The translations under genes and the position numbers were made by a program. The notes under the pieces are model-generated. The model did no database searches. It saw only the letters and a program-made list of their open reading frames with translations, and was not told the DNA's origin. From Methanomassiliicoccales archaeon LGM-DZ1 (GTDB lineage: Archaea; Thermoplasmatota; Thermoplasmata; Methanomassiliicoccales; Methanomethylophilaceae), in the NCBI GenBank assembly GCA_030168595.1, contig CP115556.1, forward strand, positions 248,001-312,000: a stretch of 64,000 nucleotides of DNA, in the 5' to 3' direction. Shown one piece after another: positions 57,829-59,154 of this stretch (the first letter of the stretch is position 1; every line of letters begins with the position of its first letter).

Positions 57829-58578
57829 TCAGGAAAGCGTCTTGCCGGACAGGCTGCCGACGGTCTCCGGAACGGAATCCCCGGACCTCTTGGCAGAGCT
57901 GCTGCCTGCGGCGGCCTTCCTCGCCAGATGCTCGGAGGAGATTATCGGAGCATCCTCGATGAAACCGAATATCAAGTTCACAACAGCGGCATCGACGGCG
58001 CGGAGCGCCTCGTCCATGGTCCTGTAGCCCATGCTGAGGGCGTTCTCGTTGTTGACCTTGATGACGGTCTTGCAGATGGAGTGGAGTCTCCTGTAACCCT
58101 CGGCGGCCTTGAAGGCCCTGTCGGATTCGAAGGAGAAGGGCATGATGGCCATCGCGGAAGCGTCGACCCCGACCCTGTCGCAGAGCTCTGCGATGACCGG
58201 CGCGGCGCCTGTCCCTGTTCCTCCTCCCATCCCTGCCACGATCAGAGCGTAATCGTATCCTCTGACGGCGGCCATGATCTCGTCCTCGTGGATTTGGGCG
58301 CACTTCTTGCCGAGCGCGGCGTCCCCGCGGGTGCCGAGACCCTGGGTCACTGCCTTGCATATGTATATGCGGCGGTCGGCGGAGGTCTGCTGAAGGGCCT
58401 CCCTGTCGGTGTTTATGGCGATGATATCCGCACGGCATGCCCTTTCGTAGAGCGCCGAAGCGATACGGCATCCTGCGCCTCCGACAGCGATCACCGCTAT
58501 CCGGGGGTCGCCCCCGATCGCGATATCTGACGCGATATCGTTCCCCATACCTGCAATTCCCGACATGTTCCATCCCAT
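57829..58578 (-). CDS. Truncated FtsZ-like GTPase without the C-terminal domain
   Basis: 249 residues. FtsZ GTP-binding elements are clear: IAVIAVGGAGCRIASAL (T1), INTDREAL (T3), the signature AGMGGGTGTGAAPVIAE (about residues 115-130) and MPFSFESDRAFKAAEGYRRL. The match ends soon after VIKVNNENAL, where FtsZ would start its T7 loop and C-terminal domain (family length ~350-400). The T7 Asp-containing loop that completes the neighbour's GTPase site is not recognisable. A Ser/Ala-rich tail follows. It may be a regulator or a non-polymerising paralogue. Cotranscribed with an upstream RHH gene (77 bp). Confidence 0.8.
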   Translation of the reverse strand: MGWNMSGIAGMGNDIASDIAIGGDPRIAVIAVGGAGCRIASALYERACRADIIAINTDREALQQTSADRRIYICKAVTQGLGTRGDAALGKKCAQIHEDEIMAAVRGYDYALIVAGMGGGTGTGAAPVIAELCDRVGVDASAMAIMPFSFESDRAFKAAEGYRRLHSICKTVIKVNNENALSMGYRTMDEALRAVDAAVVNLIFGFIEDAPIISSEHLARKAAAGSSSAKRSGDSVPETVGSLSGKTLS

Positions 58579-58655
58579 CGAAGACGTTTCTGCAAATGCG
58601 TTTCAGCCGATAGGCGGCTGTCCATCCCTTCTGACTGGCTGGCCTGTACCGTCTT

Positions 58656-59012
58656 TCAGAGCATCTGCGCTTTCTGCTGCGCGGCCCTGAAGGCGTCTGC
58701 TGCGGAGCTTTCCTTGGCATCCTTGGGGATGATCTGATCCAGGACGAGCTGCCTGATGAAGGACTCCTCGTCGAAGATTATCCCCTGCTTCTTCATGTTG
58801 TCAAGGGTCAAGAGCTGAACCTGGCTCAGTCTGACGTATATCCCATCCTCGCCCGACCTCTGCTCAGATTCCGCTCCGACGCTCCTGATGGCGCTGCGGA
58901 TGGCCTCCGAACGGGAGTCGATGCCGGTCTCCGACATGTACTGGTTGAGGATCTTGATGTCCTCATCAGTGAGTCTCAGAGAGATCAGCGTCATCTTGTC
59001 GTTCTCAGCCAT
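58656..59012 (-). CDS. Ribbon-helix-helix regulator upstream of the FtsZ-like gene
   Basis: 118 residues from ATG 59012 (MAENDKMTLISLRL); an ATG at 59048 would add 12 residues. The N-terminal ~45 residues are a CopG/RHH domain (TLISLRLTDEDIKILNQYM ... DSRSEAIRSAIRSV). A C-terminal region of unknown fold follows. An RHH regulator (CdrS) controls ftsZ in haloarchaea, so a related role is plausible; the extra C-terminal region makes this protein longer. Upstream tandem repeats at 59122-59154 look like its operator. Confidence 0.82.
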   Translation of the reverse strand: MAENDKMTLISLRLTDEDIKILNQYMSETGIDSRSEAIRSAIRSVGAESEQRSGEDGIYVRLSQVQLLTLDNMKKQGIIFDEESFIRQLVLDQIIPKDAKESSAADAFRAAQQKAQML

Positions 59013-59098: not shown

Positions 59099-59154
59099 CT
59101 ATTTATAATGTGATACACGGAGATATCTCTTCGATATCTCTCAGATATCTCTTG
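59099..59154 (-). promoter_or_regulatory. Promoter and triple 11-bp repeat upstream of the RHH gene
   Basis: A TATA-like CATTATAAATAG (minus strand, 59099-59110) is flanked upstream by three head-to-tail 11-bp repeats: GATATCTCTTC (59122-59132), GATATCTCTCA (59133-59143) and GATATCTCTTG (59144-59154). One helical turn per unit and a palindromic GATATC core in each fit cooperative binding of RHH dimers. The rest of 59155-59340 is featureless up to the leuS promoter (CTTATATTATACC, about 59338-59350). Confidence 0.6.

Follow-up and report, generated by a model that had tools for sequence, protein, structure and literature searches.

The window analysed here, a stretch of 64,000 nucleotides from the genome of the Methanomassiliicoccales archaeon LGM-DZ1, contains two adjacent genes on the same strand, coding for a short FtsZ and for a ribbon-helix-helix (RHH) protein. 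The features of this locus are collected in Table 1, together with the only other FtsZ homologue of the genome. Hereafter, G000 designates the source genome, f1 its own family Methanomethylophilaceae (order Methanomassiliicoccales, class Thermoplasmata) and g1 its own genus.

Table 1. Features of the short FtsZ locus, in positions of the window, and the second FtsZ homologue, in positions of the genome.
Feature	Position	Strand	Description and basis
Short FtsZ	57829..58578	-	249 aa; N-terminal GTPase domain complete, T7 loop and C-terminal domain absent
FtsZ signature GGGTGTG	58207..58227	-	Residues 118-124; sequence, alignment
Prolonged core helix H7	57889..58017	-	Residues 188-230; predicted model and sequence alignment
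Low-complexity tail, low model confidence	57832..57888	-	Residues 231-249; predicted model
RHH gene	58656..59012	-	118 aa; 77 bp upstream of short FtsZ, same strand; one chain with two RHH units
First RHH unit	58872..58991	-	About residues 8-47; Pfam and profile comparison
Second RHH unit	58728..58847	-	About residues 56-95; seen only by profile comparison, single-sequence Pfam negative
TATA-like box ATTATAAATA of presumed RHH-ftsZ promoter	59100..59109	-	Read from sequence
Three GATATCTC copies, exact 11-bp spacing	59120..59151	.	Just upstream of TATA-like box; candidate RHH operator
Second FtsZ homologue	G000:C1:1073734-1074576 (L207:4235-5077)	-	280 aa; T7 deleted, GTP loops lost

The original prediction, made from the letters of the sequence, described the FtsZ signature and GTP loops of the short protein as intact, and this is borne out. 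The Tubulin/FtsZ GTPase family (PF00091) matches residues 26-181 over nearly its full length (profile positions 1-186 of 190, E 1e-32), glycines G118, G119 and G122 are invariant in 49 of 49 aligned short homologues, and the GTP-pocket residues of these homologues are nearly invariant. The predicted absence of the T7 loop and C-terminal domain holds as well. A Pfam search of the protein returned no FtsZ_C match (PF12327), the ftsZ equivalog model TIGR00065 is covered only from positions 18 to 204 of 353 (154.8 bits, for a cut-off of 295.2 bits), and no T7 sequence of the NLDFADV type was found in either the alignment or the model. Moreover, the GID-type C-terminal motif through which FtsZ binds SepF (PMC8178401) is missing, the tail ending in GSLSGKTLS.

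The structure of the short FtsZ was modelled with AlphaFold2 using 27 homologues as input. The N-terminal FtsZ domain is predicted very confidently, with ten-residue block means of 93-98 over residues 31-210. The best 50 Foldseek matches of the model are FtsZ structures only; the top match aligns over 187 columns at 1.2 A, and identity to solved FtsZs is about 29-35% over about 185 residues, with an rmsd of 1.2-1.7 A for most top matches. A low-complexity tail had been proposed to replace the C-terminal half. Such a tail exists, and disorder in the model is confined to the roughly 20 final residues, but it is preceded by a prolonged H7, mostly confidently predicted as a single unbroken helix of 43 residues, in the place that the T7 loop and C-terminal domain occupy in canonical FtsZ. 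The sequence of this helix extension is poorly conserved across the family, and an amphipathic or membrane-binding character is not convincing (median shuffle p 0.10 across the family).

One copy of the short form per genome is found in its own family, five sister families and additional families of the class Thermoplasmata. Run against the whole class, the short-FtsZ profile matched 44 of 46 own-family genomes, the other two being draft assemblies of about 170-180 contigs. Full-length homologues in sister genomes, named by the original prediction as grounds for abandoning it, are not what is observed: all 20 sister genomes examined encode a protein of 238-295 aa that likewise ends after the GTPase domain, and so do the profile matches inspected in families f7, f8, f10, f13, f20 and f26. 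The nearest named record (L127), a Candidatus Methanomethylophilaceae archaeon from sheep colon, has the same pair of RHH and short FtsZ genes. That a frameshift or an assembly error cut off the missing half, the other pitfall named, is practically out of the question, since the truncation recurs in dozens of independent genomes and profile searches of the closed genome found no displaced half, with FtsZ_C neither near the short FtsZ gene nor over the cut-off anywhere. One weak FtsZ_C match (G000:C1:1295687, E 0.24) sits in a prepilin-peptidase-like region and was rejected. The short FtsZ is confirmed as a genuine and conserved FtsZ without its C-terminal half.

In a tree restricted to the GTPase domain, the short forms all fall in one clade (97/71; 98% of bootstrap trees), for which the SH-aLRT of 71 is modest support. 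Two long-branch short sequences were omitted from this tree, and support is 89/77 when both are included. Short forms of the own family group together at 100/99. The short clade as a whole branches outside FtsZ1 and among FtsZ2-type references, one of which is Haloferax FtsZ2. The simplest reading of these data is that the C-terminal half was lost once, anciently, in the short FtsZ lineage. Conservation of the short form shows selection and is not proof of a division role.

The short form is decaying in two congeners: in G007 (L053 1441-2169) GGHAGTE stands in place of the G-box, and in G005 (L054 1216-1920) part of the domain is lost. Given this decay, GTP binding by the short FtsZ is not indispensable everywhere. 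Several Thermoplasmata genomes of genus g50 in family f18 (e.g. G084 and G098), with a completeness of at least 96%, have no short-FtsZ profile match at all. Ferroplasma and Picrophilus are published FtsZ-less genera, with which the absence in g50 agrees.

The RHH gene next to the short FtsZ, also pointed out originally, scores 22.5 bits with RHH_1, above the curated cut-off, and hhalign pairs the two halves of the RHH family as RHH units, with a probability of 97.9. In each of the 49 loci of the order, and in 14 further loci of the class, an RHH gene directly precedes the short FtsZ. Strand, spacing and conservation suggest that the two genes are co-transcribed, and the RHH protein most likely autoregulates the RHH-ftsZ operon. 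The GATATCTC array is located in the divergent intergenic region between this operon and a leucyl-tRNA synthetase-like gene; its position at the promoter points to autoregulation, but no such array was found upstream of homologous operons.

The likeness to CdrS that had been suggested proves apt, as the profile of the RHH family recognises a 61-aa CdrS-like gene located 2 bp before Haloferax FtsZ2. The CdrS-FtsZ2 operon of haloarchaea (PMC7439475; PMC8406309) likewise has an RHH gene immediately before the FtsZ2-side gene. In contrast to that operon, the RHH protein described here has two RHH units and scores 21.9 bits with the CdrS model NF058555, far below the cut-off of 100, and the FtsZ is half-length. 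In a euryarchaeote (L161:4446-4760), an obvious two-unit RHH protein precedes a full-length FtsZ2-type gene; a two-unit RHH is therefore not exclusive to the short form.

The source genome is closed (1,768,094 bases, 99.7% complete), and gene absences in it rest on profile searches. The Tubulin-domain profile has a single match, the short FtsZ gene, and FtsZ_C has none over the cut-off. A full-length ftsZ, which the original prediction suggested looking for elsewhere in the genome, is not there; the one further homologue is a relic that lacks both the T7 loop and the GTP loops. Among 37 genomes of the own family f1, FtsZ_C exceeds the cut-off only in the incomplete genome G021, through a degenerate second FtsZ, and G025 has one additional match below threshold. 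By comparison, each of 24 out of 24 genomes from the five sister families of the order contains 2-7 FtsZ_C domains. These searches show that the canonical FtsZ genes have all been lost in Methanomethylophilaceae. Most sister-family genomes contain five to eight FtsZ genes, and in sister families (e.g. L208, L212, L223) tandem FtsZ1-type pairs occur with an RHH-FtsZ2-type gene a few kilobases off, divergently transcribed.

The second FtsZ, the only other tubulin-family gene of the source genome, is a very divergent two-domain FtsZ2 relic that matches no Pfam family. There is a 4-nt overlap between it and its own RHH gene, and it adjoins ribosomal protein genes L1, L10 and L12 (gene identities taken from the sequences). 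The predicted model confidently shows a two-domain FtsZ (pLDDT 88.7, pTM 0.89), with TM up to 0.78 against solved FtsZ. This homologue accompanies the short FtsZ in nearly every well-assembled own-family genome examined, and is preceded by an RHH gene in most genomes examined. Its T7 loop is lost in 23 of 23 own-family genomes examined while the two-domain fold is kept, and erosion has gone in steps. G025 and G021 retain the T7 length with replaced residues (SVGMSKL and SVSVSKL, respectively), G024, G028, G016, G023 and G033 have a deleted T7 and an intact or almost intact G-box, and in genus g1 the G-box is eroded as well (FVGGQTAD in G000). A six-frame scan found no canonical T7 motif among own-family loci, its one T7-pattern match being in an unrelated protein. 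The equivalent RHH-linked gene of the sister families has both T7 loop and G-box intact. The second FtsZ is taken to be orthologous to this FtsZ2-type gene because both are linked to an RHH gene and have the same fold; the tree does not firmly join the two.

Other division proteins also go undetected in the genus of the source organism. Every sister genome has SepF, as do many own-family genera; none was found in 13 genomes of genus g1 or in the nine g4 genomes searched, and a family-specific SepF profile confirms this absence, with two sub-threshold matches only (E 0.08-0.12). PRC-barrel proteins, the partners of SepF in archaeal division (PMC11188069), were not detected in the 13 g1 genomes and the three g4 genomes searched, and were found in other genera of the family. 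Thermoplasmata with FtsZ and without SepF and PRC-barrel proteins are mentioned in the same paper (PMC11188069). An ESCRT/Cdv system was considered as a replacement. Snf7 has no match over the cut-off in 61 genomes, with a model so insensitive that it barely detects Sulfolobus, and Vps4_C has none in G000. Vps4_C matches outside G000 fall in ORFs of about 600-770 aa, a length that suggests CDC48/VAT-type ATPases. ESCRT/Cdv was rejected as the replacement on these negatives, of which the Snf7 result is weak given the insensitivity of its model.

What could such a protein do? From the established structure of FtsZ, the short form would bind GTP and expose the upper face of the filament interface, which carries the nucleotide; it should be lacking the lower face, as well as the T7 residues by which a subunit triggers hydrolysis in its neighbour. 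A protein without lower face and T7 could therefore cap or pair, and would not build a normal protofilament. Our leading but tentative reading, quite possible though short of probable, is that FtsZ2-type subunits are end-capped or partnered by the short FtsZ in a GTP-dependent manner, and that it has outlasted the polymer-forming FtsZs. Where these survive, in the sister families, the short form would regulate them. The original prediction that it caps or regulates real FtsZ is plausible there, with 2-7 full-length FtsZs per genome, but impossible in the source organism because no real FtsZ exists in it. In that organism, the only candidate of its own kind, and the putative natural partner, is the eroded two-domain FtsZ2 with its retained C-terminal half. 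With the GTP half in one gene and the C-terminal half in the other, the two might form a GTP-switched hetero-complex rather than a treadmilling filament.

In its stronger form this becomes a split FtsZ in Methanomethylophilaceae, in which the GTP half and the C-terminal half (a T7-less pseudo-GTPase FtsZ2) would constitute an obligate, putative hetero-complex, a proposal that we consider rather unlikely as it stands. Each gene would then sit in its own RHH operon and division would proceed without canonical FtsZ, in g1 also without SepF or PRC-barrel proteins. Since the partner has lost its T7 loop, any interface between the short FtsZ and the FtsZ2 relic is different from the known one.

The constancy of the RHH neighbour, the most constant feature of the locus, could instead point to a signalling GTPase acting with the RHH protein as a GTP-dependent transcription co-regulator of division or envelope genes, with no cytoskeletal role. 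The candidate operator array at the promoter fits this idea, as does the two-unit architecture of the linked RHH, which at 118 aa is roughly double the size of the Haloferax CdrS-like gene (61 aa). However, RHH genes also stand before ordinary polymer-type FtsZ2 in haloarchaea and in the sister families. The linkage thus predates the loss of the C-terminal half and does not single out the short form, and we regard this role as unlikely.

It is quite unlikely that both remaining FtsZ genes are outgoing relics in cells dividing by an unrelated mechanism, the short gene having a minor role or none. Such a view would account for the failure to detect canonical FtsZ, SepF and PRC-barrel proteins in genus g1, for the strong erosion of the second FtsZ and for the decay of the short form in two congeners. 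It sits poorly with a gene that is kept across nearly the whole family with a nucleotide pocket almost free of variation, for far longer than a neutral relic would last.

Self-assembly of the short FtsZ into a division filament through a new interface, with the prolonged H7 replacing the T7 loop and C-terminal domain, is improbable. It is the sole tubulin-family protein with an intact GTP pocket found in the genome, and the continuous helix is mostly predicted with confidence; yet the extension is neither well conserved nor convincingly amphipathic, and the sister families have the short form alongside full sets of FtsZ, so that it did not arise as a replacement.

The short form shares with canonical FtsZ (FtsZ1 and FtsZ2 of archaea) a complete GTPase domain with the tubulin signature. 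Unlike them, it has no T7 loop, C-terminal domain or SepF-binding motif, and H7 is prolonged instead. With the first two of these absent, it is an FtsZ fragment-like protein and not a canonical FtsZ. MciZ is a short peptide that inhibits FtsZ at the protofilament end, bound to the C-terminal domain (FtsZ:MciZ complex, PDB 4u39). It offers an example of filament-end capping of the kind proposed for the short form, which differs in being an FtsZ domain itself. FtsZl1, an archaeal FtsZ-like protein, also lacks the known FtsZ C-terminal domain; it is described (Makarova and Koonin 2010, PMC2875224) as departing from the known FtsZ structure between S6 and T7 and as having a helical C-terminal domain together with a coiled coil. 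The short form, in contrast, retains the entire GTPase domain as far as H7, with no coiled coil and no helical C-terminal domain, and by this description it is not FtsZl1. A genome paper on the order (PMC4153887) nowhere discusses FtsZ or division proteins, and the text of a survey (PMC8178401) does not name the order. No earlier report of the short FtsZ family was found in the literature searched, which covered few subscription journals.

Division in prokaryotes relies almost universally on FtsZ, whose T7 loop and C-terminal domain are regarded as essential to the filament. Here, a family of animal-gut methanogens has lost every FtsZ with a T7 loop and C-terminal domain, and retains a version reduced to the GTPase domain that is conserved over a large part of the class. 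Surveys based on domain searches would score such genomes as FtsZ-positive. The stepwise losses form an ordered series, in which the dismantling of the division machinery and the nature of its replacement may be followed.
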